From positions 1,575,927-1,639,926 of the forward strand of contig NC_014664.1 in assembly GCF_000166055.1 (NCBI RefSeq): a stretch of 64,000 nucleotides of DNA. The letters run 5' to 3'. Positions 27,619-59,631 of this stretch are shown in pieces. The notes under the pieces are model-generated. The model searched no databases and was not told the DNA's origin. It worked only from the letters and a program-made list of their open reading frames with translations. A program made the translations under genes and the position numbers. The first letter of the stretch is position 1. The number at the start of each line of letters is the position of its first letter. Source of the stretch: Rhodomicrobium vannielii ATCC 17100. GTDB lineage: Bacteria; Pseudomonadota; Alphaproteobacteria; Rhizobiales; Rhodomicrobiaceae.

Positions 27619-27969
27619 GGTGTTATCCCAATAATTTCGGCGATTATTGCGTATAATATGCAAAAATGCAAGTTATTTTGTATTTTTGGCTCAGAATGGC
27701 CTTATTTGGTGGTGCGCCCTCCGGAAATTCAAAAGGGAGCCGAAGCTCCCTCGTGAAGACTTTCGTCATCACCGGCCCGGCCCTGGCGTCCCCGCTGTAC
27801 CTTGGTGCCAATCTTGTGACAAAAGCCGGGGGGGGCAACGGCTTGGCCAACCTGATTGCCAGCGGCGTCAGCACCGATGGAGAGCCCCCCCGAGGTTGAG
27901 GTAAAAAGGCTGGATTTCTACCTCAAGGTGAGCGCATATTGTGAGGCATAAAAGGGAAGTTTTTGCCTC
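27619..27969. promoter_or_regulatory. Divergent intergenic region with UUCG hairpin
   Basis: Gap between rloA (leftward) and the Fic gene (rightward). The rloA-proximal part is AT-rich and likely carries its promoter. A perfect hairpin GGGAGC-CGAA-GCTCCC lies at 27735-27750; read leftward its loop is TTCG and it is followed by TTTTG, like a terminator. A 77-codon frame at 27666 is not convincing as a gene. Confidence 0.4.
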
Positions 27970-44197: not shown

Positions 44198-45028
44198 GTG
44201 TTGAGACATCTTGCGAATGCAAATATTACATCGCCGAAATTAGGCAACCGTTCTGATAACCTTTTTAGTAAAGGTAGCCGTGGCAGATACATATGTTCGC
44301 ATGGTGGTCGAATGTTAGCATCGGATAGGGCCGTTCCCAAGTCCACAAACGTCGAAGCGATTTCTTTCCGACTGACTAAACTCCGTGAAGCCGTGGTTGC
44401 CGGTCGGTCGCGCCTCAGCTGTCTTCGACGCTGGAGTGAATTCATCCGTGAACGCGACGGATATCGCTGCGTCGATTGCCATTCGCAGGAGGATCTTTCA
44501 GCCCATCATATCTGCCGCAAATCCTTCTTCAGCGCAGCTCAGTTCGATACCGGGAACGGCATCACGCTCTGTCGCCAATGCCACAAAGAACTACATGCAG
44601 GCTTCAATGGACGCCCCAATATGCTTTTGCCGGTGGACGCAGAAGGTGGAGAAAAACTAGGCCTCATGGAACGCCTGTACAGCATCCTATTGGATGATGC
44701 TGTCGAGCGAGGATTGATGCGCGAGGACTTCTATTTTCTTAGCGATGAAATCTTGGGCTTTCTCAGGAAAATGCAAGGTTATGAGGTAGATACCTATTTT
44801 CCGGGATCACGTCTTGAACAAGCATATTTAATCCTAGCTGTGTCTGAGCGGCAAGTGCTTCGCGCCATCGCAGAGGCAAACGGCTTCGTGTTGGACGAGC
44901 GCCCGTTATTACCCGGCGGCGCAATGGAAGTCTTGAACGACGAGGGTGGTCTGGGATCCGGATGTATCGTGTGTCAAAAATACTCCCCTCGCTTCCCAGC
45001 CCCAGACAAGTCCGAGTCCGATGGATAA
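44198..45028 (+). CDS. HNH endonuclease, convergent with the MutL-type R-M genes
   Basis: 276 residues from TTG 44198 (AGGTGG just upstream), or 238 from ATG 44312. The HNH core is RDGYRCVDCHSQEDLSAHHI, GNGITLCRQCHKELHAG. The C-terminal half (FLSDEILGFLRKMQGYEVDT) is not assigned. It converges with, and overlaps at the 3' end, the vsr gene. It probably supplies an extra nuclease to the R-M cluster, though opposite orientation leaves this open. Confidence 0.78.
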   Translation: MLRHLANANITSPKLGNRSDNLFSKGSRGRYICSHGGRMLASDRAVPKSTNVEAISFRLTKLREAVVAGRSRLSCLRRWSEFIRERDGYRCVDCHSQEDLSAHHICRKSFFSAAQFDTGNGITLCRQCHKELHAGFNGRPNMLLPVDAEGGEKLGLMERLYSILLDDAVERGLMREDFYFLSDEILGFLRKMQGYEVDTYFPGSRLEQAYLILAVSERQVLRAIAEANGFVLDERPLLPGGAMEVLNDEGGLGSGCIVCQKYSPRFPAPDKSESDG

Positions 45029-45474
45029 GCCTCGGCCGTAAATGCTGAAGCTAACTTCGCGGCAAGAATTTCGACCGACTTCGTTTCGCATTCCCAAACG
45101 ATTAACACCTGCCACCCCATTTTGCGCAGTGCAATTTCGGTCAGTTGGTCCCGTGCGACATTCCGATCAAATTTCTCTGTCCAGAATTCTAGACGGGTCT
45201 TCGGCATAGTCGCCTTTTTGCAGAGAGGATGACGGTGCCAGAAGCAGCCATGAACGAATATTACGGTCTTGTGTTTCCGCAGCACGATATCAGGGGAACC
45301 TGGCAAGTCGCGACGCTGAACGCGAAAACGATAACCCAGCGCGTATAACGTGCGCCGAACCGTCATCTCCGGCGCCGTATGTTTCTGTCCGACCGCTTGC
45401 ATAATGCGGCTCCGGACAGGGTCTACAGACAAATGGCTACTCAACGGATGGAGTAAAGCTTTCGATAGCATCAA
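44974..45474 (-). CDS. vsr: Vsr-type (very short patch repair) endonuclease
   Basis: 166 residues. The Vsr fold and active site are clear: TAPEMTVRRTLYALGYRFRV, DLPGSPDIVLRKHKTVIFVH, GCFWHRHP. Vsr enzymes nick T:G mismatches that arise at C5-methylated sites. With GHKL ATPases, Vsr-like proteins act as the restriction nuclease. The start may be as late as TTG 45432; the longer version overlaps the ATPase gene by 38 bp. Confidence 0.92.
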   Translation of the reverse strand: MMLSKALLHPLSSHLSVDPVRSRIMQAVGQKHTAPEMTVRRTLYALGYRFRVQRRDLPGSPDIVLRKHKTVIFVHGCFWHRHPLCKKATMPKTRLEFWTEKFDRNVARDQLTEIALRKMGWQVLIVWECETKSVEILAAKLASAFTAEAYPSDSDLSGAGKRGEYF

Positions 45475-47431
45475 ATATTTTCCAAAGTTTGTCTACCTTC
45501 TTATGTTCCTCAATATAATCTTGATAGGCGGCTTGAGCGTTGTTGAGCAATTCGTCGTAGAGAACAATCCGAGCGTCGACAGTCTTGAGCTGATCAATAA
45601 CACCCTGCTTACCGGTGCCAACTGCATCATACCATTCGGGCGGATATTTTCCAAGCAGGCAAACGATCTCAATCGGCCAGCCCTTATCTTTCGTGCCGTC
45701 GATGATTTTTTTTACTCCATCACGATAGGAGCGGATTTGCTTAGTGAGGTCATCAAGATGCACAGAAACAGTTGCGCGTTTCAATTCAATAATGACGTGC
45801 TTACCCACTGCTGTTCGGTAGGCGAGATCGACGCGGGCGTTCTTCTCCTTTTTGTTCAGCTTGTCAGTGTTATCTTGAAGAAATTTATTCACTTTCGTTT
45901 CTGAATGCTCAGAACCTTTTGCCCGTTCCCATGATGGGTCAAGAAGCCATAGATGCTCCTTGATGAAGTCTCGAATGACGAGTTCCTTGTCGTTCTCTGA
46001 AATTTTGCTTTGAAGAGTCTTGATCACTCCAAGGCGGAGCTTTACTATTTGGCCATAAAAACTTAACTCCAGGTCGTCGATCTCTCCGAATATCTCAAGG
46101 ATATACGATACCCCTTCATCTTTAAGTTCATCAAGTTTATCCAACTGCTCTTTGCGACGATAACTTTCAAAAGCCAGGATTGATGCCTTCAATAAGTCTT
46201 TTTTGTACTTGTCGTCCGGCGAACGGATTGTATTGAGTCGGCCTATCCAACGTTCAGCCTTCCTCTTTGTGTCGCCCTGGAGACGATCGAGCCAATCTGA
46301 AACCGCAGGCACGGAGGCTGCAAGCTTTGCACCATCGGTCCGCCGCCACTCGCTCCAGCGGCCAGCTATGTGGCGGAGTTCGGACAGAACGATGTCTCGC
46401 AACGCTTCGAAACGCGGGTCGTCTTCTTTGAGCGACTGGCGACTGCTTGTTGCGATATCACCTTTATCATCAACGTCCAAATCTTCACAATGAAGCTCAC
46501 CGATGATGTAGTCCGCGTAAATCTCCTTCTGGCCAAAGATGTCAAGAATATCCTCTTGAGCCATCTTGCCGCGCATAAATATCGCAACTCTGTTTAGGTT
46601 GTCGCCTTCTTCGTCCTTTAGCTGGCTCGGGCTGGACACGGTACCTATCCATCCGGTGAGGCTTATACCTGCCTTCCTCAACTCGTCACTAATAGCCGGG
46701 AGCCTTGGCTCCGCTTGACGTTCAAGTTTGCAAGTACTAGCGAAGGCCGTCTGGTCATCATAGGTCCAGAGATACTGAAGCGCCTTATGATAGCCGCGAT
46801 CTTCCGGCCCCACCTCGTTTCCATTGATTTGTACGGTGAAATCGTTCTTCGGCCCAATCACCGAAAACCGACGGGCGACACGTCGCTTCAGACCTTCGAC
46901 GGTCATGCCGGACAATGACCTAGAGATCTTCGAAAGAACGATCCGCGTGCCCGCCACCAAATCGGGTGGCCAGTTGGTCAATTCTTCCGGTCTATAGATG
47001 TTCTCGCTTTTGCCTGCAATCGCCTTCCGTATAATGTCCCGGTCCATTCGGAATGCGGTGCGCTCACCGTTCAACGTGGTGAAGACTTCTGCCACCTGGG
47101 CGATCGAAAAGATGGATAGCTTTCCGATGCCCTTGCGGCCCATCGGCTTTCGCCCAAGCGCAGTTACGTCTCCCAATTCGTCCCGCCGCTTGAAGCCGAC
47201 AGTTAGGAAGCGGTCGATTACGCCATCGCGATCCATTCCTGTGCCGTCATCTTCAATGGTGATAGTTTCGGCTACCCTGTTGATCGTGACTTGCACATTC
47301 CTTGCGTCGGCATCCCATGCGTTAGCGACTACTTCCGACAGGACGGCCGGAACGTTGCTGTATAGATTGATCCCCAGGTGCTCCAGCGCATTGAGACTTA
47401 TCGTCATGATCAGTTCTCGCTGTGCTGTCAT
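45437..47431 (-). CDS. MutL-like GHKL ATPase fused to PD-(D/E)xK nuclease
   Basis: 664 residues. Bergerat ATPase motifs: N box VLSEVVANAWDADA, G1 IEDDGTGMD, G2 MGRKGIGKLSIFS, and GTRIVLSK. The middle is alpha-helical. The C-terminal ~150 residues read as a PD-(D/E)xK nuclease: ARVDLAYRTAVGKHVIIELK with the D...E-x-K pattern, and IVCLLGKYPPEWYD. Proteins of this class belong to restriction systems described with MutL homologues, in which the ATPase controls Vsr-type and other nucleases beside a C5 methyltransferase. The 4-bp overlap with the methyltransferase shows one operon. Confidence 0.85.
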   Translation of the reverse strand: MTAQRELIMTISLNALEHLGINLYSNVPAVLSEVVANAWDADARNVQVTINRVAETITIEDDGTGMDRDGVIDRFLTVGFKRRDELGDVTALGRKPMGRKGIGKLSIFSIAQVAEVFTTLNGERTAFRMDRDIIRKAIAGKSENIYRPEELTNWPPDLVAGTRIVLSKISRSLSGMTVEGLKRRVARRFSVIGPKNDFTVQINGNEVGPEDRGYHKALQYLWTYDDQTAFASTCKLERQAEPRLPAISDELRKAGISLTGWIGTVSSPSQLKDEEGDNLNRVAIFMRGKMAQEDILDIFGQKEIYADYIIGELHCEDLDVDDKGDIATSSRQSLKEDDPRFEALRDIVLSELRHIAGRWSEWRRTDGAKLAASVPAVSDWLDRLQGDTKRKAERWIGRLNTIRSPDDKYKKDLLKASILAFESYRRKEQLDKLDELKDEGVSYILEIFGEIDDLELSFYGQIVKLRLGVIKTLQSKISENDKELVIRDFIKEHLWLLDPSWERAKGSEHSETKVNKFLQDNTDKLNKKEKNARVDLAYRTAVGKHVIIELKRATVSVHLDDLTKQIRSYRDGVKKIIDGTKDKGWPIEIVCLLGKYPPEWYDAVGTGKQGVIDQLKTVDARIVLYDELLNNAQAAYQDYIEEHKKVDKLWKIFDAIESFTPSVE

Positions 47432-48558
47432 TCTACTTCCTCCAGGTGTTTCTTCACCGCTCGAGCAATCGCCGCTGCCAGTTTGACCGGAACAGCGTTG
47501 CCGATCAGCCGCCCGATGGCCTTGAACTGAATTCGCTCTCCAGGCCGCACGAACTCATAATCGCGAGGAAAGCCTTGCAACATCGCACCCTCACGGAGTG
47601 ACAGTGCTCTAGCCTGCTCGGGATGGCCAAAGCGACCATTGCCGAACCCGAAGAACTGCGTGGTGATGGTCGGCGATGGCTCTTCCCATTTCATTCGACC
47701 GTAGACCGAGGAGTACCCCCGACCGGTCTCAGCCTTGTGGCAGGCTGCGACCAGATCGTCGCCCCACTCTCTCCAAGTGCCTCCAGGTTTTGACGCGGCG
47801 ATCCTACGAACATTGATGTCCGACAAACGACTTGCGCAATGAAGGGGATCGGCATCGTCAGACTCACCATGGCCGAGTGGCGGTAGCTCGCCGATTTCGT
47901 CCATCACCGTTCGGTAGTTATCCTTATGAGTCGGCGTCGGTAGCAGGATCGGCCCCCGCCGAGACGCCAACAAAACCAGCCTGCTACGAGTTTGCGCAAG
48001 GCCAAAATCGGGACCGTAAAGAACCTTCCAGATAACGTGGTAATCGGCGTTTTCGAGCACATCCACGAATTCACGGAAGACCGCCCCCTCCTTGAAAGTT
48101 AGAAGACGCGGAACGTTCTCCATTGAGACGACGTCGGGCCGAACTTCATCAATCAACCCAGCAAAGTAGGAAAGAAGCTTCCATTTGGGATCATCGTTCT
48201 TCTGGTTGTATGTCGAGAATGGCTGACAAGGTGCGCAACCTACCAGCACGCGATGCCGACCGGGAACAAACAAGTCCTCAATCTCCCGCCCTTTGAGCTG
48301 CGCTACGTCCCGCCTGATGAAAGGCGCGTCATTATTATGCTCGAAAGCGTACCGACACGTCTCATCCGTGTCGATACCAGCGACTATGTCGAATCCTTCT
48401 GAATGGAAGCCGTGAGACAGACCACCCGCACCACAGAACAGGTCGACGACTGTAGCATCTGGTCTCGTCACCGTTTGATGGTCAACTTGGATTTCAGGGG
48501 CCACGCTCGCTGTCTTCACTTCATTCCTCCGATCCTTCAACTCCTTTCTGAACATCAA
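47428..48558 (-). CDS. DNA C5-cytosine methyltransferase
   Basis: 376 residues with the ordered m5C motifs: I VVDLFCGAGGLSHGFHS, IV VLVGCAPCQPFSTYN (catalytic Cys), VI VSMENVPRL, VIII AQTRSRLVLLAS and X AIGRLIGNAVPVKLAAAI. The target-recognition region between VIII and IX is short (~85 residues). First gene of the operon with the ATPase and vsr; it protects host sites and defines the system's specificity. An inverted repeat upstream may control it. Confidence 0.95.
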   Translation of the reverse strand: MMFRKELKDRRNEVKTASVAPEIQVDHQTVTRPDATVVDLFCGAGGLSHGFHSEGFDIVAGIDTDETCRYAFEHNNDAPFIRRDVAQLKGREIEDLFVPGRHRVLVGCAPCQPFSTYNQKNDDPKWKLLSYFAGLIDEVRPDVVSMENVPRLLTFKEGAVFREFVDVLENADYHVIWKVLYGPDFGLAQTRSRLVLLASRRGPILLPTPTHKDNYRTVMDEIGELPPLGHGESDDADPLHCASRLSDINVRRIAASKPGGTWREWGDDLVAACHKAETGRGYSSVYGRMKWEEPSPTITTQFFGFGNGRFGHPEQARALSLREGAMLQGFPRDYEFVRPGERIQFKAIGRLIGNAVPVKLAAAIARAVKKHLEEVE

Positions 48559-49214: not shown

Positions 49215-50030
49215 CTACTGCTCATACATCGCATCTTCGATGCGGCGGCACGCGATGTCGAAATATCGCGGCTCGAACTCTATACCGGTGAACACGCGCC
49301 CCATCTTGACGCACGCCACGCCAGTGGTGCCCGAGCCCATGAACGGATCGAGGACGTTTTGCCAGTCGTCTCGCGTGCGTAGGAGCTCCTGCATCAAGGT
49401 CACCGGCTTGCCGGTTATGTGGTGCTTGTCTTTCGCGATTACCGGGGTGCGGATATAGCCCGTCTGGTAGATGCCTGGCGCGCTGGCGTCCCGCGTGATC
49501 GGCCCCGCAGTTGCGGTCACGATGTATTCGACCTGCGTGCGGAACCACCCCTTGTTCGGCCTCGCCGCCTCCGTCTTATCCCAAGGCACGATGCCCCGAT
49601 AAACCCACCCTCCGACTTGGCAGGCGTCGATGATCGCCGGCAGGTTTCGCCAATCGATAAAACACATGAGCGCGCCGCCCTGGCGGGTCGCCCGCAAGCA
49701 CTCGGCCATCCAATCGGAGCACCAAAGCGTGAGCGAGCGCTGATCGCGGTTGTCGCCACCGAAGTCGGGATCTGTCTTCTTCGTCCCCGTAAAGCGATAC
49801 TTTTTGCTCGGCGCCTGGTTCCGTGCGGCCTGGGTGGAGCCTCCGCTCGAGTAGGGCGGATCCGTTATGACCGCGTCAAACCCGTTCAACTCCGGCAGCG
49901 CGAGCCGGCAGTCCGCATTGTAGAGAGTGTGTGGGCCGATCTGGACGCGCGAACGCGCGAGCCGCTCGCGCAGCGCTTCGATGATGTCTCGGTGATCTTC
50001 TTCATTCGCCGCGCCAGTCATGACGTTCAT
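49215..50030 (-). CDS. Solitary DNA methyltransferase (N4-cytosine/N6-adenine, beta class)
   Basis: 271 residues. DPPYSSGG (motif IV) comes before LDPFMGSGTTGVACVKMGR (motif I), the order of beta-class enzymes. YNADCRLALPEL and VFTGIEFEPRYFDIACRRIE complete the SAM fold. No restriction partner is beside it. Phage-borne enzymes of this type protect the phage genome. Operator-like site D lies 64 bp upstream, so it may be under repressor control. Confidence 0.88.
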   Translation of the reverse strand: MNVMTGAANEEDHRDIIEALRERLARSRVQIGPHTLYNADCRLALPELNGFDAVITDPPYSSGGSTQAARNQAPSKKYRFTGTKKTDPDFGGDNRDQRSLTLWCSDWMAECLRATRQGGALMCFIDWRNLPAIIDACQVGGWVYRGIVPWDKTEAARPNKGWFRTQVEYIVTATAGPITRDASAPGIYQTGYIRTPVIAKDKHHITGKPVTLMQELLRTRDDWQNVLDPFMGSGTTGVACVKMGRVFTGIEFEPRYFDIACRRIEDAMYEQ

Positions 50031-50645: not shown

Positions 50646-51023
50646 TTATGCCGCGTTCAGATGGTAGGGCCGTACGAGGCAGTCTGCCGGGATGCCCCAA
50701 CCGGTGCTGATCTTGTGGATCATGTCCACGGTCAGCGCCCGACGGCGGTTCAGCACCTCCGATGCACGTGGCCGAGACCCCAGAAGCGCGGCCAGATAGG
50801 CCTGCGTTTTTCCGGTCACCTCCATGTGTGTCCGCAACAGGTCAATCGGCTCGACCGCCTCTATCGGAAAGTGCCGGGCCTCGTACGCATCGATCAGATC
50901 GGCCAGCACATCGAAGCGATCCGCCTCCGGTGTTCCGGGAGCGGGCTGATTGTCGAAGTAACGGGCGATCTCGGCGAGCGCCCATTCGTGGTCTTCAGCA
51001 GTGCGGATCGGTCGAATATCCAT
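50646..51023 (-). CDS. higA: HigA-family antitoxin (orphaned)
   Basis: 125 residues: N-terminal DHEWALAEIARYFDNQPAPG, central ADLIDAYEARHFPIEAVEPI, and the XRE-type HTH TGKTQAYLAALLGSRPRASE, VLNRRRALTVDMIHKIS. HigA represses its operon and neutralises HigB. The toxin gene directly before it is 5'-truncated, so the antitoxin now lacks a functional partner. Its start overlaps the higB stop by one base. Confidence 0.9.
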   Translation of the reverse strand: MDIRPIRTAEDHEWALAEIARYFDNQPAPGTPEADRFDVLADLIDAYEARHFPIEAVEPIDLLRTHMEVTGKTQAYLAALLGSRPRASEVLNRRRALTVDMIHKISTGWGIPADCLVRPYHLNAA

Positions 51024-51135
51024 CAGATCGCCTCCGGGTTGATCTTGTCATACTCCTTGTGGGTGCCGACGAACTTGATCAGTCCGCGGCGGTAGGGATA
51101 TGCGAAATGCACGATCAGGCGGAACTTGCTTGTGC
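51023..51135 (-). pseudogene. higB: HigB toxin remnant
   Basis: The last ~37 codons of a HigB toxin: SKFRLIVHFAYPYRRGLIKF, VGTHKEYDKINPEAI and stop. Upstream the sequence changes to an unrelated gene in another frame (51115-51687), so the toxin's N-terminal two thirds are lost through a deletion or insertion junction near 51120-51140. Confidence 0.8.
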
Positions 51136-51687
51136 AACGGTCTGCAAAACCATTCGAGCGACAGCGACAGGACAATCGATAGGAACCCAAGCTTTGGACC
51201 GCGCGTCATATTTCTCGAACCGCGCATGGCGAGTCAAAACCTCCCGCAATGAAGTTTCATCCAATTCAACCAATGCAGTTTGCACTTCGGGAGTTTGCAT
51301 TCGAGTGGTGAGGAATCGAGGCGCCAAACGCGTCACTGCGCGCACAAGTCTCCCAGCGTTCAAGGTCACACCGGTAGCTGGGTCAGCCAAGATCCGCCTA
51401 GCGGCCTCGACTGCCGCGTGAATTTCTCCCCCGCGTATACGGATAATAGGGCGCTCGCCCGGGATCCCGGTCTGTCGGTCTAACGTAACGTCACGGCTCT
51501 TTGTTTCGGGCAGACCGTCATCTTTGCACGTCCCGATGCGATCTCTTGCGGCGAATTCGGTTCTCAGACGCCCGAGTTCTTCATCCCATGCTGCCTGCAG
51601 CCCAGCGACGAGCGATTCCAAGTCCTGGCGATGCTGCTGGCGCATCTCGCGGAGCTCCTCCCGCAGCTTCTCTATCTCGTCTTCCAT
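51115..51687 (-). CDS. Fragment related to phage primase/helicase N-terminal region
   Basis: 190 residues: an N-terminal coiled coil (MEDEIEKLREELREMRQQHR), then PIIRIRGGEIHAAVEAARRI and LVELDETSLREVLTRHARFE, KYDARSKAWVPIDCP. The second part resembles the segment preceding the ATPase in phage primase-helicases. The ATPase itself is missing: translation ends in the higB junction. Probably a truncated gene. Operator-like site E is 45 bp upstream. Confidence 0.5.
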   Translation of the reverse strand: MEDEIEKLREELREMRQQHRQDLESLVAGLQAAWDEELGRLRTEFAARDRIGTCKDDGLPETKSRDVTLDRQTGIPGERPIIRIRGGEIHAAVEAARRILADPATGVTLNAGRLVRAVTRLAPRFLTTRMQTPEVQTALVELDETSLREVLTRHARFEKYDARSKAWVPIDCPVAVARMVLQTVAQASSA

Positions 51688-51731
51688 CGGCTCGCGGTCT
51701 TGCTCTTAATCTGGCGGATAAAGAGCACGAT

Positions 51732-51748
51732 GATTACAATATGTCAAC
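51732..51748. promoter_or_regulatory. Putative phage operator, site E
   Basis: GATTACAATATGTCAAC, a match to the 17-bp motif just upstream of the leftward gene at 51115-51687. Confidence 0.5.
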
Positions 51749-52121
51749 GCTAACCAAGCCGGCGTGAGGTCTTGCGCCTTTCTCGGCCGAAGAAGTCCAG
51801 TGGTCACCCTTCCTGCCTAGCGCGATATGAAAAACTTGCATCCGTGAAGTGCCCTGGATCGTGGTTCTCAACTTGCGCGACCATAGCGGTGGGGCGATAA
51901 CTGAAGTCAGGTATTGACAATTCTATGCAAATATGATCTGTAGACTATACCGCGACGCAGAGAAAGCGGGCATTCACCTTCTTCTATGTGAAGAAGGGCG
52001 GTTACGCTTAGGGAAGATCGGTGAGCCCGACCACCCTGCACGCCTTGGGACTGTCCTTATTTATCTGCTGCCGCCTTCGCGACGCTGGACAATATAGCCA
52101 GTAAGCAGAAGGAGGATGCGC
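51749..52121 (+). promoter_or_regulatory. Leader of the HicA/ParB-like module with a strong hairpin
   Basis: A TTGACA at 51915-51920 is a plausible -35 element. Downstream is a perfect hairpin CCTTCTTC-TATGT-GAAGAAGG (51977-51997) and a further ~120 nt without a gene before the ribosome site AAGGAGG at 52109-52115. No T-run follows the hairpin, so it is not an ordinary terminator. It may be an RNA regulatory element. Confidence 0.4.
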
Positions 52122-52244
52122 ATGGAGCGTTTCCCTCTCTCCTTGGCACCTCGGATCCCTCAACCAGTTGTTGCGGTCGATCTAGGCTGTGCCGTCGGCC
52201 GCCTGCCAAGGAGTATTAGAAATTGTCTGCAAGCAGCCAGATGA
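52122..52244 (+). CDS. 40-residue ORF coupled to hicA
   Basis: ATG 52122 (or 52116) has a strong ribosome site, AAGGAGG. It encodes MERFPLSLAPRIPQPVVAVD, LGCAVGRLPRSIRNCLQAAR. Its stop TGA overlaps the hicA ATG at 52241-52244 (ATGA). Spacing argues for real translation; the peptide matches no family I know. Confidence 0.45.
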   Translation: MERFPLSLAPRIPQPVVAVDLGCAVGRLPRSIRNCLQAAR

Positions 52245-52432
52245 AGGAAGTTCGACGTAATCTGGAACGTCTGGGCTTCGTCGCCACGAAGACACGCGGA
52301 GGTCACTGGCGTTTCCATCACCCTGCGATGGACGGCCCGGTGTTCGCGCCCGATACGCCTTCTGACCATCGGGGATTGAAGAACCTTCGCGCACTGCTTC
52401 GTCGCAAGTTGTGTGCGGCTCCGGTCCGCTGA
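52241..52432 (+). CDS. hicA: HicA-family mRNA interferase
   Basis: 63 residues: MKEVRRNLERLGFVATKTRG, GHWRFHHPAMDGPVFAPDTP, GLKNLRALLRRKL. The G-G-H segment with the catalytic-type His, on the dsRBD-like fold, fits HicA toxins. A TTG at 52223 with AAGGAG upstream is an alternative start. No HicB antitoxin follows; instead the next gene, 80 bp away, is the ParB/Srx-like protein. Confidence 0.75.
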   Translation: MKEVRRNLERLGFVATKTRGGHWRFHHPAMDGPVFAPDTPSDHRGLKNLRALLRRKLCAAPVR

Positions 52433-52512
52433 CGATCCCACGGGAGCCGTTTCCAAGCGGCTCTCGCTACCCGTTTTTACGCCAATTCCGACGTCAAACG
52501 TAGGAGAATCCT

Positions 52513-54534
52513 ATGACGAATACTGATGAAAATCTCCATATCCTGCCTCGCCCAGTCGAGCGCCTCCCTGATTACGCCCACGCCAAAGCTAGGCAAACGC
52601 TTGCTGAGCGATTGACCAACGCCTTCGACTTATCGGGTGCCTCTGCGATTGCCATTTCGAACTCGGTTGTCGATCCGTCCGAAGTACGCGCATCAATCGG
52701 GGGCGCCGAGCAACCAGACGTCGAGCGTATTCCTGTGCCTGGCGGCACGTTGCTCGGCATCAGAACGAGCGTGTGGGCGAGGCGGGTGATGCCCGACCCG
52801 CGAAATCCGCGTACCTTTCCCGCTCGGCGGCATCCGTTCGCTATTGAACCAGGTACCGGGGGCGAAGACTCCAAATTCCGACCCATCCCGGAACCGCGCC
52901 CACTTGATGCTGCACGCCCGCAGGTCGCCGAGCTCGCCGTGATGATCGAAAATAGGCATCACCTGATTTGGGCGTCACAGCACGCTGAGCGCTTCGTGCT
53001 GGAAGAAAACAACTGGAAGCCTTCGATCGAGTCACAGGGTGTTATGGAGGCTGTCTGGCTTGTCGCAACGACTTATGAGCATGCGGATGGCTCAGCGCCT
53101 GCAACCGTGCTTACGACGGTTGAGGGGTCTTCACGCACAACGGCCGTCCATAGTTTGCTCGAAGTCCACTCACACGAAGTACCGTATGATGACCAGGACG
53201 CCAAGTTGAGAGCCTACATTCGCCGTCTCAACGAGTTATTCGATAAGGGCGAACGTGACAGAGCTACCACGGTCGCGCTCCGTTGCGAGCGTATTCCGGC
53301 GCTGATTCTCGTAGGCTTCCGCCCCTACCCCGGCGGTTCAACAACCTTTCCGACAGCGGTGAGGTCGTTTGTTGCGCTTCGCCATGTTGATCCTCCTAAG
53401 CCTTGGGGGCCCGGTCCTGAAAACGAATCCCTCGCCGACGAAGTTTTGGACGAATTCTGCCGCCGAAATCTTATTTCCGAGACCGAGCGTGATTACTATG
53501 CTGGATCCTGCACGAAGGCAGAAGCGAAAGCGGCGCACCTTCCGGTTGATCCAGTGCTGCGCGCGGCACATATCGTGCGTCTGTTTACCAGCGACGACTC
53601 CGCCATCAAACATGCGATGCGCGTAGCCGTCACGAGCCAATCAAGTCGCAAGAACATCGGCTCGAAGCTCAAGAATGAGTTGGCGACCGGTCTCATCCTG
53701 CGCGCAGTTGCCGATGAGCCGGCAAAAGTCGACCAAATCCGTCGCTACCTTCGTCACGCATTCGGCCAAGCCGTGCATAAGGTTGCCTGGACGTCCACCG
53801 GCCGTACTACCGAGCAAATCGTTAAGGAATCCCTGGCCGAGGTTCGCGCTGTAATCGGAGATGGTTCCACCGAAGAACCCGGGCCCGCTTCAATGGAGCT
53901 TGCTGTTCGTGCAGCCTACCCTCTTGTCGTCGATGGACGACTGAATGCAGATCGCGGCACCTCAAACAACGAACAGCCAGATCGGCGTACGCCGGGCGAG
54001 ATTCTTGATACGATGCGTCGATCCATCCAAGGCGTTCACCAGCTTGGACGGGCCCTGCGCGATTACGAAGAGGGCGTCCCACTACGCGCGGTTGACGAGG
54101 AAGGGGAGATTAAGCGTACAGCCGATGACTCCGCGGACCAGATTGTTAGCGACATCTACCTGCGGAACGAGTTTCCGCCAGCGGGGAAGATGAAGGCCAG
54201 ACGCCCCGGCGACACACCGACCGATCGCTACTACAATTCGCTAAGTGCACTCGGCTCAGCGATGATGGATGTCAAGCGGACGTTCGATGATCTGAAAGAA
54301 GTGAGGGGGGATGACAACCAGCCCATCGTCGAAGTACAGGGCGTTGAACTTCGTCACATTACTAGCTGGAGAGATCTTTTGAGCATTTGGGATGAAGAGA
54401 TGGTTGTCTGGGGCCGAACGTTCCGCAAGAAGTACGGGACAAAGGACCACGGTGGGGCAATACCGAGAGAGGACGACGAGCCAACTGAGGTAGATCCTTA
54501 TGCCGAAGCAGAGTATGAAACTGCCGACAATTGA
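52513..54534 (+). CDS. Large ParB/Srx-like protein, function unknown
   Basis: 673 residues from ATG 52513 (GTAGGAG upstream). The N-terminal third resembles a ParB/sulfiredoxin-like fold: VWARRVMPDPRNPRTFPARR (box I-like), SIESQGVMEAVWLVATTYEH, and VLTTVEGSSRTTAVHSLLEV in place of the ParB GERR box. The remainder (residues ~260-673) is helical and unassigned, ending very acidic (REDDEPTEVDPYAEAEYETA). ParB/Srx domains bind or hydrolyse nucleotides and some are nucleases. Co-orientation with hicA suggests one module. Confidence 0.5.
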   Translation: MTNTDENLHILPRPVERLPDYAHAKARQTLAERLTNAFDLSGASAIAISNSVVDPSEVRASIGGAEQPDVERIPVPGGTLLGIRTSVWARRVMPDPRNPRTFPARRHPFAIEPGTGGEDSKFRPIPEPRPLDAARPQVAELAVMIENRHHLIWASQHAERFVLEENNWKPSIESQGVMEAVWLVATTYEHADGSAPATVLTTVEGSSRTTAVHSLLEVHSHEVPYDDQDAKLRAYIRRLNELFDKGERDRATTVALRCERIPALILVGFRPYPGGSTTFPTAVRSFVALRHVDPPKPWGPGPENESLADEVLDEFCRRNLISETERDYYAGSCTKAEAKAAHLPVDPVLRAAHIVRLFTSDDSAIKHAMRVAVTSQSSRKNIGSKLKNELATGLILRAVADEPAKVDQIRRYLRHAFGQAVHKVAWTSTGRTTEQIVKESLAEVRAVIGDGSTEEPGPASMELAVRAAYPLVVDGRLNADRGTSNNEQPDRRTPGEILDTMRRSIQGVHQLGRALRDYEEGVPLRAVDEEGEIKRTADDSADQIVSDIYLRNEFPPAGKMKARRPGDTPTDRYYNSLSALGSAMMDVKRTFDDLKEVRGDDNQPIVEVQGVELRHITSWRDLLSIWDEEMVVWGRTFRKKYGTKDHGGAIPREDDEPTEVDPYAEAEYETADN

Positions 54535-55043
54535 CGGTCGAATAGGTTCGGTGCTTTGGTAAAGCCGCAGCGCCGACCAGCTCAATCTGACGACCGCTTA
54601 CGCCGCCGCGAGCCGCTTCAATTTGGTGTCGCACTGTAAGCGCAGTTGCGCATCCTCCGGCAGCCAGAGCGACAGGTGCGGAAACATCAGGCGATGAAGC
54701 GCGCTGCGTTTCGAGGGGTGGCTGGCACCGGGGAGGAATGGCGGATCAACCTGGAGTAGCGGGCGTTCTCCGAAGTCAGGCTATGCCCGCAGTTGGCCCT
54801 TCTGCTGCCTTGTCTTAAAGGGGATTCCAACCCGGCGGAGCGGAAACACCGTGAAAGATCTCGTAAAAACTGTCGCCTCGACGCGAAGCGCGTCAGCGGC
54901 AAGGAAAAGCAGGCCGATTTCCCGGCCCGCCTGGTTCTCAAGCGTGGCGGCCGGTCGCTATCAATGCACAATAATCGCTCACTTTGGCTCGCCGATTTTT
55001 TCGGAACAAGCTATGATTGCCTCGCGAGGAAGTGGGGTGCGCG
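54535..55043 (-). pseudogene. Debris: two gene fragments before Gabija
   Basis: 54598-54790 (leftward) reads RPLLQVDPPFLPGASHPSKR, SALHRLMFPHLSLWLPEDAQ, LRLQCDTKLKRLAAA and stop: a coherent C-terminal fragment without a start. 54797-54960 is about 70% identical to 58087-58240 and corresponds to part of the HTH/Pro-rich gene at 57912. From 54961 to 55043 there is AT-richer sequence likely to contain the gajA promoter. Confidence 0.5.
54797..54960. repeat. Direct repeat left of Gabija (copy 1)
   Basis: Shares with 58087-58240, in the same orientation, CTTCTGC-GCCTTGT, GGGATTC, CGCGAAGCG, CAGCG, AAGCAGGCCG and TTTCCCGGCC in order. I estimate ~70% identity by eye. The two copies bracket the Gabija genes. 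Confidence 0.65.
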
Positions 55044-56675
55044 ATGTATATCGAGAAGGTCAAAATCAAGAATTTCAAATGCTTTGAAGGTTGGTTCGAG
55101 GTTGATTTCGATCAGGGTGTCAACATCATCGTTGGCAATAATGAGGCCGGAAAATCCACGCTACTCGAAGCGATCCATCTGTGCCTGACGGGCATGCTGA
55201 ATGGGAAATATCTTCGCAACGAACTATCTCCCTATCTCTTTAACAGGAATATCGAGCGGGCGTATCTGGACAGTCTCGCCACGAAAGCCCCACTACAACC
55301 GCCGGAGATACAGATCGAACTGTTTCTTGACGGTGAAGACGATGCGCTGGAAGAACTTCGCGGAAACGGCAACTCCGAGAAGAACGACAAGGCGCGTGGC
55401 CTCCTCTTCTCAATCGAGTTCGATAAGAAATACGACGGTGCCTACACTGAGTTGCTGAAGGGCAAAGAGATCAACTCGATACCCTTGGAATTCTATCAGG
55501 TACAATGGTCGGAATTCTCCCGCCAGCCGGCGATGGCCCGCACCATTCCTATCAAGTCGGCCCTCATAGATTCAACGAGCACGCGTGTGCAGAGCGGTTC
55601 GGATATGTACATCTCCCGCATCGTCCGAGAGTTTTTGGACGACAAGGAGCGTGTTGCGATATCCCAAGCCCACCGCAAGCTGAAAGACGCCTTCAAGGCC
55701 GACGGCAATGTCGGCGCCATTAATGAAAGATTGGCGGAAGCGGCGAAGATCAGCCGAAAAAAGGTCAGCATCTCGGTCGATATGTCGTCTCACAATGCCT
55801 GGGAAAGCAGCCTCATGACTTATATTGAGGATGTGCCCTTCCACTATATCGGCAAGGGCGAGCAGTGCATCGTCAAAACGCGCCTCGCGCTGAGCAGCAA
55901 AAAGAACAGCGAAGCGACCGTATTGCTGATCGAGGAACCGGAAAACCACCTCTCGCACTCGAAGCTCAACCAGCTCATCAGCGATATCAGCACCGACAAT
56001 AGCGGCAAGCAGGTCATCATCACCACGCATAGCAGCTTCGTCGCGAACAAACTTGGACTGGACCACCTGATCCTGTTACGGGAAGCTAAGGTCACACGGA
56101 TCAAGGATCTGGACGCGAGCGACTTCTTCCATAAGCTGCCTGGCTACGACACGCTGCGTCTTGTGTTGTCGCAGAAGTCGATCCTTGTAGAGGGCGATGC
56201 GGACGAGCTGGTCGTCCAACGGGCCTATATGGATGCCAACGGGGGAAAATTGCCTATCGACGACGAGATCGATGTCATCTCGGTCGGGCTTTCGTTCCTG
56301 CGTTTTCTCGAACTGGCGACGGCGCTGAAAATCCCTGTCGTGGTCGCAACCGACAACGACGGGGATACTGCTGCGCTTGAAAAGAAGTACGCCAAATACA
56401 AGGACGTCAATCATATCACAATATGCTATGATCCTGTGGTGGATAAGGGGGACTTGGTCCTCGGCGGCAAACCTTTCAACTATAACACCCTTGAGCCGAA
56501 GCTGGTCAAATCCAATAGCGTCGAGACCTTCAACACGCTGTTCAGTACCAAGCATGATCTCGATAACCTTCATCGTTATATGAAAAACAACAAGACCGAG
56601 TGCGCGTTGGCGATTTTCTCGGCGAAGATAAAAATCACTTATCCGAAATATATCCTGGATGCGATCGCCAAATGA
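55044..56675 (+). CDS. gajA: Gabija protein GajA (OLD-family ATPase-TOPRIM nuclease)
   Basis: 543 residues from ATG 55044. ABC-type ATPase: MYIEKVKIKNFKCFEGWFEV, Walker A GNNEAGKSTLLEAI, signature region YIGKGEQCIVKTRLAL, Walker B VLLIEEPENHLSH and switch ITTHSSFVANKLG. TOPRIM nuclease: ILVEGDADELVVQRAYMDAN (Glu) and VVATDNDGDTAALE (D-x-D). GajA is the site-specific nicking nuclease of Gabija, held off by nucleotides in healthy cells. An earlier TTG start at 55017 is less likely. Overlaps gajB by 4 bp. Confidence 0.95.
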   Translation: MYIEKVKIKNFKCFEGWFEVDFDQGVNIIVGNNEAGKSTLLEAIHLCLTGMLNGKYLRNELSPYLFNRNIERAYLDSLATKAPLQPPEIQIELFLDGEDDALEELRGNGNSEKNDKARGLLFSIEFDKKYDGAYTELLKGKEINSIPLEFYQVQWSEFSRQPAMARTIPIKSALIDSTSTRVQSGSDMYISRIVREFLDDKERVAISQAHRKLKDAFKADGNVGAINERLAEAAKISRKKVSISVDMSSHNAWESSLMTYIEDVPFHYIGKGEQCIVKTRLALSSKKNSEATVLLIEEPENHLSHSKLNQLISDISTDNSGKQVIITTHSSFVANKLGLDHLILLREAKVTRIKDLDASDFFHKLPGYDTLRLVLSQKSILVEGDADELVVQRAYMDANGGKLPIDDEIDVISVGLSFLRFLELATALKIPVVVATDNDGDTAALEKKYAKYKDVNHITICYDPVVDKGDLVLGGKPFNYNTLEPKLVKSNSVETFNTLFSTKHDLDNLHRYMKNNKTECALAIFSAKIKITYPKYILDAIAK

Positions 56676-57811
56676 TGGGGCCGAATAAGCTCGTCATTGC
56701 TGCGGCAGGCTCGGGGAAGACCACCTACCTCGTCAGGCAGGCGCTTGCGGTTGAACAGAAACGGGTCCTCATCACCACCTACACGGAATCGAACGAAGAA
56801 GAGATCCGGCGCAAATTTTTCGAAATCAATGGCTCGGTTCCGGGCAACGTGCATATCCAGACCTGGTTCAGTCTGCTGATCGAGCATGGCATCAAGCCCT
56901 TTCAAGGCAAGCTGTTCGATTGGGATGTCGCTGGTATGCTTCTGGTTTCGCAGAGATCCGGTTTTCGCGGGCGTGACCTGCAAGGTCGTCCCATGTATTG
57001 GGGTGAGGAAGATTTCAGACGTTGCTACTTCGATCGTCGGAATCGCGTCTATTCAGACAAATTGTCGAGGTTGACGATACGGTGCAATGAGGCATCGGAC
57101 GGCGCTGTCATCGAGCGGCTTTCCCGTATTTATCCATTTATTTTCGTAGATGAGGTGCAAGATCTGGCAGGCCACGACCTCGACGTTTTGGCGGCGCTCT
57201 TCCAAAGCCCCGCCAACGTCGTCATGGTGGGTGATCCCCGTCAGGTCACCTATGTGACCCATCTGGAGGCTCGCCTTAAGAAGTACAGGGATGGAGGTAT
57301 TGCCGACTTTATTCGGGCGGAACTTCCCCGAAAGGTTACCTGCGATATTGATGTGACCAGCCTCATGACATCGCACCGAAATAGCACCGCTATCTGCGAA
57401 TTGTCGTCGAAGCTCTATCCAAAAATGGCTGCTGCGACCGCTTGCAAATGTCCCGACTGCAGGCAACCGGCCCCTATTGATGCGGGTCTCTTCATCGTCC
57501 GGCGAAAGGATCTGCCCCGGTATCTCGAGACGAGGCGACCGGTGCAGCTCCGATGGAGCTCGACCGTCAAGATCGGATCTCCCGATCTACCGGCGCTAAC
57601 GTTTGGACGGTCAAAAGGCCTCGGCTTCGACCGCGTCATTATTTATCCCACCAAAGAAATGGTGGACTGGCTGAAGAATGTCCAATCGCAGCTGAAGGCC
57701 GAAACCCGCGCAAAACTCTATGTCGGTCTCACCCGCGCGAGGCATGCGGTGGCAGTGGTCTACGACCCCGCCGATGGTGAGATCGTCGCAGGATTTACCG
57801 TTTTCGAGTAG
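56672..57811 (+). CDS. gajB: Gabija protein GajB (UvrD-like helicase)
   Basis: 379 residues from ATG 56672. Motif I LVIAAAGSGKTTYLVRQ, II PFIFVDEVQDLAGHDLD, III VVMVGDPRQVTYVTH, IV-like VTSLMTSHRNSTAICELS, V FGRSKGLGFDRVIIYPT and VI YVGLTRARHAVAVV. A Cys cluster (ACKCPDCRQPAP) is present in the middle. GajB senses DNA ends from phage and activates GajA. The short length is normal for GajB. Confidence 0.95.
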   Translation: MMGPNKLVIAAAGSGKTTYLVRQALAVEQKRVLITTYTESNEEEIRRKFFEINGSVPGNVHIQTWFSLLIEHGIKPFQGKLFDWDVAGMLLVSQRSGFRGRDLQGRPMYWGEEDFRRCYFDRRNRVYSDKLSRLTIRCNEASDGAVIERLSRIYPFIFVDEVQDLAGHDLDVLAALFQSPANVVMVGDPRQVTYVTHLEARLKKYRDGGIADFIRAELPRKVTCDIDVTSLMTSHRNSTAICELSSKLYPKMAAATACKCPDCRQPAPIDAGLFIVRRKDLPRYLETRRPVQLRWSSTVKIGSPDLPALTFGRSKGLGFDRVIIYPTKEMVDWLKNVQSQLKAETRAKLYVGLTRARHAVAVVYDPADGEIVAGFTVFE

Positions 57812-57911: not shown

Positions 57912-58400
57912 CTAAGGGCTCAACGGCCGCAATGGGGGCGCGAAGCGGCCGTTCACAGCGGCGTGCCGGGACGATCGCTTTGGGGTCAATTTCGCCGTAG
58001 AGAACGGGCGAGGAAGGGGATCCGCGACGACCGCTCTTGATGGTGTTGCGGCTTTTAGTTCAGGATTTTCGAATTTCGGCAAACGGCCTTCTGCGGCCTT
58101 GTTTTGAACGGGATTCAAGCCGGGAGGGGGATCACCTTCGGAAGCCGGGGGGAAACTTTCGGCGCGAAGCGAGACAGCGTCAAAGGGAAGAGCAGGCCGG
58201 TTTCCCGGCCTGCCTGATCGTCGCGCCCGGCGGTTGAGCCTGTGCCGCACGAAGCATCGATGCAGCGTCATGTGCGAGGTGGAGATCGCGCCGACCTGCT
58301 TCAGCACCTTGTGGCACTCACGGATGGACAGCCCTTGTCTACGCAGAGCCCACCGCAAGTTCCTCTTGCTCGGGCGTCAGACTGCGCTGCCGGCGCGGTG
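57912..58400 (-). pseudogene. HTH/Pro-rich plasmid protein, frameshifted remnant
   Basis: The frame from TTG 58358 reads LRRQGLSIRECHKVLKQVGA, ISTSHMTLHRCFVRHRLN, then a long low-complexity tail. The natural N-terminus (SLTPEQEELAV) is found just upstream in a different frame, inside the end of the BRO gene. A frameshift or fusion has therefore broken the gene. Proteins with this HTH and a Pro-rich tail occur in plasmid transfer regions. A diverged copy of its tail lies at 54797-54960. Confidence 0.5.
58087..58240. repeat. Direct repeat right of Gabija (copy 2)
   Basis: Partner of 54797-54960. It falls within the HTH/Pro-rich remnant, so the repeat reflects two relics of one gene family rather than an IS end. 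Confidence 0.6.
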
Positions 58401-59147
58401 CCCTTTCTCTGCGCAAAGCGCTCCGGCCTCAAGCAGCGCCTCCATGGCCGGCCCCGTGGTGCGGCGTGCGATCTCGATGAGCGGCACTCCTAGCTCGCGG
58501 GCAAGGCCCCGCGCAACCGGCAGAGCCGTCGACCGCTTGCCATCCAGCATGAAGGACAGCATGCTCTTCGACACGCACACCCGCTCGGCGAGTTCGGTGT
58601 AGCTCTTGATCCCGGCAGCAGCCATCCTTGCCTCGAACCAATCGCGGGTCCAGCCGTCTACCGGCATCTGCCAGGCCTTGCGCTCCAAATCCATGATCCG
58701 GTTCTCAAGCCCAACAGCATAGTCGGTGGTTGAAAGCATCAAGCGCTTCAAGGCGAGCACTTCGTCCGCGAGGACCAGTTCACGTCGGCGCGGCTCCTCG
58801 GCCTGGCGGGCGCTGTACGAGCCCGTCTTACGAATCGATGGCAGGACTTCGGTCACAACCCAGTCCTGAAAGCGTTCGGCGGCTGGCTTGTCGCTACGCA
58901 GAACAAGGCGATAGAAGCCGGGCTCGTTGATGATGGTGACGTTCGGGTTGCCCCGACGAATTACATCCGTCAAGCGGATGGAATTCTGTTCATGCTCCTT
59001 CAAACGAGCGCTGGCGTTCCCGACATTGGCAATTTCCAGCACGCGGCACACGTCGGCCAGCACAAACCATGCCTCGCCGTCGCGGTTGACGATGCGGACA
59101 TTGTTGCCCTCGAAATCGAACGGCACGATTGCAGCGCCGCTCTTCAT
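58377..59147 (-). CDS. BRO-N antirepressor-type protein with repressor-like HTH
   Basis: 256 residues from ATG 59147 (ribosome site GGGAGGGAGG). The BRO-N domain (residues ~5-115) shows VPFDFEGNNVRIVNRDGEAW, FVLADVCRVLEIANVGNASA, INEPGFYRLVLRSDKPAAER and WVVTEVLPSIRKTGSY. The C-terminal ~85 residues carry an HTH (YTELAERVCVSKSMLSFMLD) closely matching the repressor at 34995-35624, including GKRS, ELGVPLIEIARRTTG. BRO proteins are phage antirepressors/DNA-binding proteins; sharing the HTH suggests the same operators. Confidence 0.85.
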   Translation of the reverse strand: MKSGAAIVPFDFEGNNVRIVNRDGEAWFVLADVCRVLEIANVGNASARLKEHEQNSIRLTDVIRRGNPNVTIINEPGFYRLVLRSDKPAAERFQDWVVTEVLPSIRKTGSYSARQAEEPRRRELVLADEVLALKRLMLSTTDYAVGLENRIMDLERKAWQMPVDGWTRDWFEARMAAAGIKSYTELAERVCVSKSMLSFMLDGKRSTALPVARGLARELGVPLIEIARRTTGPAMEALLEAGALCAEKGHRAGSAV

Positions 59148-59428
59148 GCCTCCCTCCCGATGCGGGTGTTTTCCAATTTCGCGACGGCGCCGAAGAGGAT
59201 CTCCGTGGCGAGGTCGATGCATGCCCAGCGGTCCTCATCGGATGCGCGGCTTTCGAGGGTGGTCAGCAGCAAATTCGCGACGCGGTGGAGCGATTCAAGG
59301 GGGTCGCCAAGCAGAGGCGCCGCTTCATGCTGTTCGGAGGGGATTGCGAGTGAAATTGCCATTGGAGGCTCCCGATAGTTGTTCAACCTCTCGTCCTGTT
59401 CAAGGGACGAGACCGGGTGCTTGAACAC
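59144..59428 (-). CDS. Hypothetical phage protein
   Basis: 94 residues from GTG 59428, or 72 from ATG 59362 (MAISLAIPSEQHEAAPLLGD). It contains LESLHRVANLLLTTLESRAS and ACIDLATEILFGAVAKLENT, helical. Ends with a 4-bp overlap with the BRO gene. Small helical proteins upstream of BRO genes are common; function unknown. Confidence 0.6.
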   Translation of the reverse strand: MFKHPVSSLEQDERLNNYREPPMAISLAIPSEQHEAAPLLGDPLESLHRVANLLLTTLESRASDEDRWACIDLATEILFGAVAKLENTRIGREA

Positions 59429-59430
59429 CG

Positions 59431-59631
59431 CTATCGGACGGCCTGCGGCTTTCCCCCGAAGGGTATTTTATGGTCGCAGACACCCGGCCATAGGCGAACG
59501 CTCTCCGAGGCGGAGACGTTGCTATTCCCGTGGACATAAAAAATCCGCGATGACTTTACGGAGCGCGGATCCCGCCGATAGTAGAAGGTGTGTTCAGCAC
59601 CTACCCAAAACATAGGCTCCGATCCGCGCAC
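59431..59631 (-). CDS. Small hypothetical protein
   Basis: 66 residues from GTG 59631, or 60 from an internal ATG: MFWVGAEHTFYYRRDPRSVK, SSRIFYVHGNSNVSASESVR. It fills the space between its neighbours with gaps of only 2-3 bp, which is the main support. The sequence can also be drawn as a cloverleaf, but that was rejected. Confidence 0.45.
   Translation of the reverse strand: MRGSEPMFWVGAEHTFYYRRDPRSVKSSRIFYVHGNSNVSASESVRLWPGVCDHKIPFGGKPQAVR

Follow-up and report, generated by a model that had tools for sequence, protein, structure and literature searches.

A conserved leader RNA upstream of a large protein gene of no known family, with an optional hicA-like gene, in chromosomes, a plasmid and phage contigs of alphaproteobacteria

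Introduction

In ToxIN, a type III toxin-antitoxin system, an RNA is located upstream of the toxin gene. For the abortive infection gene abiD1 (outlined in PMC2661086), a phage protein was described that switches on translation by binding to a structured motif in the initiation region (outlined in PMC2661086 and PMC12373285). In the AbiF system, the toxin is bound in trans by the RNA RCd22, which contains two short repeated abiF motifs, as summarised in PMC12373285. Here, we describe a unit in Rhodomicrobium vannielii ATCC 17100 in which a structured leader RNA is followed by a hicA-like gene and by a gene for a 673-residue protein (hereafter the large gene and the large protein). It was found in a stretch of 64,000 nucleotides (contig NC_014664.1, positions 1,575,927 to 1,639,926), called the window below, whose own numbering is used throughout. 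A first-pass annotation of this DNA had read the region as a HicA toxin gene linked to a 40-residue open reading frame (ORF) and the 673-residue ORF, forming a toxin or defence unit.

Results

Upstream of the first gene of the unit, a conserved structured RNA forms a leader of about 290 nucleotides (about 51946-52222). Its conservation at the DNA level was first observed when the upstream sequences were aligned with those of a Mesorhizobium plasmid (L003) and Brevundimonas lenta (L005), and then in G087, a genome of the same order (locus L002). When the window leader was compared by blastn with 72,556 plasmid records, the Mesorhizobium plasmid was recovered at E 8e-9, the only other hit being one 23-base chance match. 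A covariance model, R1, was built from the window and these three loci and covers the RNA domain at 51946-52121 on the plus strand, which has an invariant CGC/GCG closing helix and two arms. R1 detected a fifth locus, the phage contig L010, with 117 bits (E 6e-26).

The leader is 58-67% identical between pairs of the five loci. In the large gene, agreement at fourfold sites is 22-33%, which means saturation (a second phage contig, L026, stands for the phage here), and the 235-250 bases upstream of the promoter reach 37-47% identity in a forced alignment. Invariant columns number 99 of 352 in the leader versus 5 of 389 in the upstream sequence. The long invariant stretches are CCGCGACGCAG, GCCGCCTTC, GAAGGAGGATGCGC and CACCTCGG, with GAAGGAGGATGCGC being the longest invariant run.

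In the R1 alignment of five sequences, 92.2% of 255 cells pair and two-sided changes are present in 15 of the 51 pairs, compared with 7.8±1.9 after shuffling (0/500 shuffles reach 15); these controls do not remove the relatedness among the five sequences. With sliding partners, 42-52% of cells paired and 5-10 pairs showed two-sided changes. The closing helix and most of helix 6 are invariant, so they are uninformative on pairing. The perfect 8-bp hairpin CCTTCTTC/GAAGAAGG (51977-51984 with 51990-51997, plus strand), reported in the first-pass annotation as a leader hairpin, is present as helix 3, one helix of a larger conserved RNA which that annotation had missed; 88.6% of its cells pair and 4/7 pairs show two-sided changes. 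By eye, a GAC / YAA-type internal loop seems to recur in both arms of the RNA domain (51946-52121), as GCGAC ... GGUAACGC in one and as GGUGAC ... GGUAAGC in the other, perhaps reflecting an old duplication.

No match to Rfam 15 was found at E<=5 in 51700-52600, and the known Rfam riboswitches were therefore rejected as an identity for the leader. The mimicry of a 23S rRNA stretch, suggested by TTGGCACCTCG, was considered and provisionally rejected.

Just before the RNA, promoter-like boxes are located at 51914-51942 (plus strand), consisting of TTGACA, a 17-nucleotide spacer and a weak second hexamer, TCTGTA. A TTG[AC] box is found 36, 37, 36, 36 and 36 nucleotides before the invariant CCGCGACGC in the five loci and, because of this nearly constant distance, the RNA probably starts at CCGCGACGC. 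A generic sigma-70 scan did not list the promoter-like site, and the second hexamers are weak. Immediately upstream of the RNA, a divergent gene (51115-51687, minus strand) encodes a 190-residue protein matching phrog_29234, a PHROG family of unknown function (1.8e-11).

The R1 domain is followed by a last hairpin (52139-52213, plus strand), which covers the hicA Shine-Dalgarno sequence AAGGAG. Its outer stem P6 pairs CTCCTTGGCA (52139-52148) with TGCCAAGGAG (52204-52213), and its inner stem P7 pairs 52173-52180 with 52195-52202. The Shine-Dalgarno sequence of the next gene forms the outer 3' strand of this hairpin in all five loci, whichever gene that is: hicA in the window, L010 and B. lenta, and the large gene itself in the Mesorhizobium plasmid and G087. 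The hidden sequence is AAGGAG in the window and L010, AAGGAA in B. lenta, AAGGAC in the plasmid and GAGGTG in G087, with spacers of 9, 7, 5, 7 and 7 nucleotides across the five loci. The outer stem is present in the minimum-energy fold of 5/5 sequences. When the strings were aligned by hand, as was done for all P6, P7 and Shine-Dalgarno counts, 38/40 cells of P7 were paired, with two-sided changes in three pairs, and 36/40 cells of P6 were paired in four loci.

In the window, the RNA is not separated from hicA by any terminator-like site that was found, and the stretch 51880-52300 is free of tandem repeats. A stable hairpin at 52441-52466 (plus strand; z-score -2.67), which separates hicA from the large gene, is followed a few bases later by TTTTT and looks attenuator- or terminator-like. 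The interval between the two genes in B. lenta contains two other, stronger hairpins (z-score -4.43).

The 40-residue ORF (52122-52244, plus strand) has no family match and was judged not to be a gene but a part of the RNA. In L010, its start codon ATG is replaced by ACG, and the corresponding frames are 23 codons long in B. lenta, 20 in the Mesorhizobium plasmid and 19 in G087, with different ends. As it is not conserved, its proposed role as a peptide antitoxin neutralising HicA was rejected. A leader peptide was also rejected, since lengths and ends differ and G087 does not have SLAPR, a motif that recurs in the four loci where the DNA is conserved.

The large gene (52513-54534, plus strand) was present as annotated, and its product, which belongs to no known family, has full-length relatives in four other loci with 58-67% identity. 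In tblastn searches, the plasmid records contained the Mesorhizobium relative (64%) and a remnant covering residues 558-644 on a Shinella plasmid (L004, 8001-8261), and 50,697 phage records contained zero relatives. Among 297 genomes of the same order, two matched (the own genome and G087). A four-row profile, A2, matched one of 385 genomes of the class, the own genome, and the phylum scan matched 2/398, the own genome and one matching within a few bases of the B. lenta position, which is most likely B. lenta itself. The genome scans share genomes, so their counts are not additive. A species-genome collection gave B. lenta (65%) and a Sinorhizobium piece (L006, 6001-6536) that reads through three frames; these were the two relatives among 42 contig stretches found with patterns from one sequence, which is not an exhaustive count. 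The Sinorhizobium and Shinella pieces are decayed copies.

From viral contigs in IMG/VR, L026 was recovered with a large protein that is 67% identical. A single-protein scan of viral contigs yielded four stretches and no relative, and the remaining viral scans, one of which covered the best 80 of 99 matched stretches, yielded L010 and L026 as the only relatives among the loci listed (L132 is the contig of L010). A tblastn search with the HicA-like protein gave nothing at E<=0.01 in plasmids or phages. In the title and abstract opening of open-access literature, nothing on this RNA, the large protein or their combination was found among the matches listed.

The RNA precedes 4/4 full-length large genes for which upstream sequence is available (the window, B. 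lenta, the Mesorhizobium plasmid and G087). In L010 it precedes hicA, and the contig ends 13 bases after that gene, while the large gene stands at the beginning of L026, a contig of the same metagenome. From their common metagenome and complementary contents, the two contigs are taken to be one phage locus. The own genome, B. lenta, the Mesorhizobium plasmid, G087 and L010 each gave one strong RNA match. Further matches scored low: a second one in B. lenta had 21.7 bits (E 0.049), one in the Shinella plasmid 20.7 bits (E 0.046) and one in L026 8.8 bits; the Sinorhizobium genome had none.

R1 matched 2/397 genomes of the order, 1/385 of the class and 1/5 of the family of G087, stricter filters being used in RNA scans over 40 genomes, and every genome matched in these scans has the large gene. 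On the 83 viral-scan loci other than L010, the best R1 score was 15.5 bits (E 0.3), taken as chance. In another viral scan of 18 loci, where 60 bases on each side of the pattern were inspected and R1 itself was run on L010, the RNA was visible only in L010. As judged from these loci, the constant core is the RNA and the large protein, and hicA is optional, because the RNA and the large gene co-occur and hicA is missing from the Mesorhizobium plasmid and G087. The module is rare and patchy, and is distributed over chromosomes, a plasmid and phage contigs of alphaproteobacteria.

The large protein had no match at E<=1 in Pfam, NCBIfam, PADLOC or PHROG. Weak, non-significant matches were to DUF6214 in two N-terminal pieces (E 0.01 and 0.05) and to three further families in one member each (E 0.07-0.17). 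A PDB profile search with A2 returned 0 matches at E<=10, and an AlphaFold2 model built with 3 sequences had a predicted local distance difference test score (pLDDT) of 34.

The first-pass annotation had pointed to ParB/Srx-like boxes in this protein. Two motifs are conserved: SIESQGVMEAV (53023-53055, plus strand), of which SIxSQGVME is invariant in the homologues, and GSSRTTA (53125-53145, plus strand), where GSSRxTAxH is invariant and GSSR lies 29 residues on from the glycine of the first motif. They could correspond to Box I (C motif) and Box II (GxxR), respectively, by likeness to the boxes outlined in PMC12704722. A loose Box I plus Box II pattern, written post hoc and therefore weak evidence, matched 4/5 homologues, 21/29 ParB proteins and 12/20000 shuffles. 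In 627 open frames of at least 300 residues, the same post-hoc pattern had 11 matches: seven copies or pieces of the large protein, three ParB-looking frames and one other.

No Pfam ParB match was found. The five homologues were aligned by hhalign with the 29 ParB proteins, which came from 29 of 30 loci (L161, with an 88-residue frame, was left out); the probability was 0.4-1.7% (E 0.03-0.17), which is not significant. In the controls, other segments reached 0.1-0.6% and the highest of 10 shuffles 1.4%. The short alignments fall on the NPR box and Box I, and the query alignment is shallow (effective number of sequences 1.7). The large protein may carry a ParB-type nucleotide-binding domain, but it is not filed as ParB/Srx because the profile methods were unsupportive, the fold model was unusable and the pattern was written after the fact. 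The strongly acidic C-terminus is present as annotated, and is among the least conserved parts of the protein.

The hicA-like gene (52223-52432, plus strand) has a TTG start and encodes 69 residues. It was found in 3/5 RNA-bearing loci: the window, L010 and B. lenta. The earlier start at ATG 52241, within an ATGA (52241-52244) that does exist, was replaced: the most likely start is TTG 52223, because the N-terminus MSAxSxMK is common to the 3/3 HicA-like proteins with a start codon there (TTG in the window and L010, ATG in B. lenta). A Shine-Dalgarno sequence is located 5-9 nucleotides before this shared start.

The HicA-like protein matched Pfam PF07927 at E 6.5e-6 with 26.6 bits, just below the curated cut-off of 27, and the PADLOC HicA-like match was 2.5e-7. 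In a PDB profile search the best hit was 1whz (E 0.0046), and in its own genome the window ORF was the best of four HicA matches at E<=1 (25.4 bits; the next had 14.4). A model from 3 sequences (pLDDT 74) showed a helix, three strands and a helix, which is the alpha-beta-beta-beta-alpha fold. Foldseek ranks 1-5 and 7 were HicA or HicA-like chains (6g26 twice, 1whz, 5yrz, 4p78 and 4c26), with probabilities of 0.51-0.99 and E 0.03-0.76, none reaching E<=0.001. The motif GGHWRF is invariant in the 3/3 HicA-like proteins and fits the conserved histidine in G-[SG]-H, which we take to be the catalytic residue of HicA.

The gene after hicA is the large gene, not hicB. In agreement with the first-pass annotation, no HicB match by Pfam was found in 17 ORFs scanned besides hicA: at E up to 1, the 40-residue ORF, the large protein and five neighbours, and, at E up to 0.1, 10 of the small ORFs, from both strands. 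That annotation also paired HicA with the large protein and expected their homologues to be neighbours. The outcome lies in between, with hicA adjoining the large gene in 3/5 loci, one of them inferred across two contigs, and an obligate pairing is weakened by the two loci without hicA.

In the window, the unit is located between a type II restriction-modification set and Gabija. Upstream are Vsr (44974-45474), a restriction endonuclease-like ATPase (45437-47431) and a methyltransferase (47428-48558) of this set and, also on this side, an N6 methyltransferase (49215-50030). Gabija gajA and gajB (55017-57811, plus strand) start about 480 bases 3' of the large gene and are neighbours outside the unit. 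The unit was rejected as a Gabija component, because gajA and gajB lie apart from its genes and each has a strong PADLOC match (GajA 1e-228, GajB 8.6e-141). The name Gabija was absent from the gene table of the Mesorhizobium plasmid locus, which is incomplete, and from the Pfam results for 10 ORFs of the B. lenta locus; G087 was judged by eye.

On the Mesorhizobium plasmid, the unit adjoins genes for an integrase, VapC and a GNAT-type pair. Genes for a relaxase, a ParA-family protein and type IV secretion are at most 9 kb away. In the phage contig L010, tail sheath, tape measure and baseplate-hub genes precede the RNA, and in L026 a second baseplate-hub gene follows the large gene; in Mu, such baseplate-hub genes are neighbours. 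The unit follows uvrB in B. lenta, and in G087 it adjoins a ribonucleotide reductase gene (named by eye).

Other features of the window were recorded. An AbiL-like pair is located at 25707-27663 on the minus strand (AbiLi 1.1e-100, AbiLii 8.4e-27), and a SIR2-type PADLOC candidate, PDC-S65, at 9742-11526 (E 9.9e-221). Near-identical inverted copies of a 544-residue gene (12805-14439, plus strand; 41209-42843, minus strand), which presumably encode an IS66-type transposase, flank roughly 27 kb of island DNA. The protein encoded at 50646-51023 (minus strand) resembles the first 119 positions of PADLOC PD-Lambda-2_B (1.8e-34) and has a weak helix-turn-helix match; a tRNA-Gly predicted by ARAGORN at 50654-50740 overlaps this gene on the opposite strand and has no Rfam match. 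An Rfam sRNA-Xcc1 match (59403-59489, minus strand; 68.3 bits, cut-off 53) adjoins a phage anti-repressor-type gene (58377-59222).

Discussion

The reading we prefer, with confidence that is evenly balanced, is a mobile, RNA-led module. It would have a promoter of its own and a structured leader, followed by an optional hicA-like gene and by the gene for a large protein from a new family, and its translation would be restrained in cis. From the anatomy of the leader, control of translation in cis would best explain why the Shine-Dalgarno sequence is hidden before whichever gene comes first. The module is probably defence-type. More than a bare HicA, in a defence-type setting, stood from the defence unit of the first-pass annotation (restriction-modification genes, Gabija, phage contigs and a plasmid), and the 40-residue part of it did not. 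The AbiL-like pair and the SIR2-type gene of the window also fit such a setting.

In the mechanism we propose, the leader RNA would keep translation of the module low in cis. A trigger would alter the upstream RNA domain, so that the Shine-Dalgarno sequence is freed; candidates are a phage product, the nucleotide state, stalled translation or the loss of the module's own protein from the leader. The large protein could then act on the invading element or arrest the cell and, where present, HicA would be an added ribonuclease effector. A bolder version can be offered only tentatively and we consider it unlikely as a whole: a new RNA-protein mobile defence module in which the RNA is both a translational lock and a bound sensor, paired strictly with the large protein, HicA is an exchangeable ribonuclease effector replacing the HicB-controlled arrangement, and the large protein is perhaps nucleotide-switched via a ParB-type domain.

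Several observations weigh against a cis-restrained defence module. There are only five RNA sequences, of which four built R1 and all were aligned to it, so the pair counts favour the structure, and single folding of the whole leader only mildly beats shuffles (z-scores -1.5 and -1.9). In G087 the hiding stem is on shifted bases, and the minimum-energy fold pairs its inner part otherwise. No RNA was found near the decayed large-gene pieces on the Shinella plasmid and in Sinorhizobium, and no catalytic domain is established in the large protein. Within the few kb inspected, no obvious defence island surrounds the unit in B. lenta or G087, so that the case for defence depends on the window, the plasmid and the phage contigs. 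A ParA-family gene is located at a distance of about 5.5 kb from the plasmid unit, and this would be compatible with a role in maintenance as well.

Such a role belongs to another explanation, in which these are ordinary accessory genes of mobile elements and have no defence role. Their product, for example a maintenance factor or a ParB-like regulator, would bind the leader and so exert feedback. The Box I- and Box II-like motifs of the large protein are consistent with this, as is the occurrence of the unit in phage contigs and on a plasmid that also carries genes for a relaxase, a ParA-family protein and type IV secretion. The frequent linkage of orphan ParB-like proteins to mobile elements, outlined in PMC12704722, fits as well. 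However, the window unit sits between restriction-modification genes and Gabija, and 3/5 loci have a HicA-type toxin gene; we see a minor but real chance that this explanation is correct.

The RNA could instead be trans-acting, being processed from the transcript and complexed with the large protein or HicA. It would then serve either as an RNA antitoxin or, within a defence complex of RNA and protein, as sensor or guide. The genome scans gave no strong RNA match without the large gene, and the long invariant stretches CCGCGACGCAG, GCCGCCTTC, GAAGGAGGATGCGC and CACCTCGG exceed the needs of a simple hiding hairpin. HicA is described as having a fold of the double-stranded-RNA-binding type (outlined in PMC11594946), and AbiF with its non-coding RNA RCd22 is a precedent (summarised in PMC12373285). 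On the other hand, type III toxin-antitoxin RNAs have tandem repeats and a terminator, whereas here no repeats were found and, in the window, no terminator-like site separates the RNA from hicA. A hairpin hiding the Shine-Dalgarno sequence right before each start codon fits control in cis, and we consider a trans-acting RNA unlikely.

A toxin-antitoxin pair, in which HicA is neutralised by the large protein or the 40-residue peptide, as first annotated, is improbable: the HicA fold with its GGH histidine, the lack of HicB in the ORFs scanned and the adjacency of hicA and the large gene in the window and B. lenta (inferred for L010 with L026) speak for it, but two of the five RNA-bearing loci have no hicA and the peptide is not conserved.

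If a mobile module restrained in cis by its leader is the correct reading, the mobile modules of alphaproteobacteria would gain a new protein family and an RNA that Rfam 15 does not contain. It would place a HicA toxin gene under an RNA leader instead of beside HicB, and would represent a riboregulated, probably defence-type unit that is carried by chromosome, plasmid and phage.

Of the known systems, the proteins with a ParB-CTPase fold, as outlined in PMC12704722, are similar to the large protein in having a Box I-like (SIESQGVMEAV) and a Box II-like (GSSR) motif in the same order. They differ in that the NPR box of the large protein is about 70 residues from Box I, no helix-turn-helix or other Pfam domain was recognised in it and its profile matches were not significant. 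The HicAB type II toxin-antitoxin systems share the HicA fold, size and GGH histidine (PF07927; outlined in PMC11594946), whereas here hicA is optional and is under a structured RNA leader, and no HicB was found in the ORFs scanned.

The position of an RNA upstream of a toxin-like gene resembles ToxIN (summarised in PMC12373285), from which the module differs in having neither tandem repeats nor a terminator between RNA and gene. AbiF with RCd22 is likewise a phage-borne gene preceded by a structured RNA, according to the summary in PMC12373285; unlike that pair, the module lacks both tandem repeats and a terminator after the RNA, and the family searches gave no match to AbiF. In AbiD1 of Lactococcus lactis, a secondary-structure motif is located in the translation initiation region and translation is inefficient until activated, as outlined in PMC2661086, and this is also what we propose for the leader described here. 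The AbiD1 protein is unrelated, judged by name alone, and the present module differs in having a conserved leader of about 290 nucleotides, an alphaproteobacterial distribution and an optional hicA.

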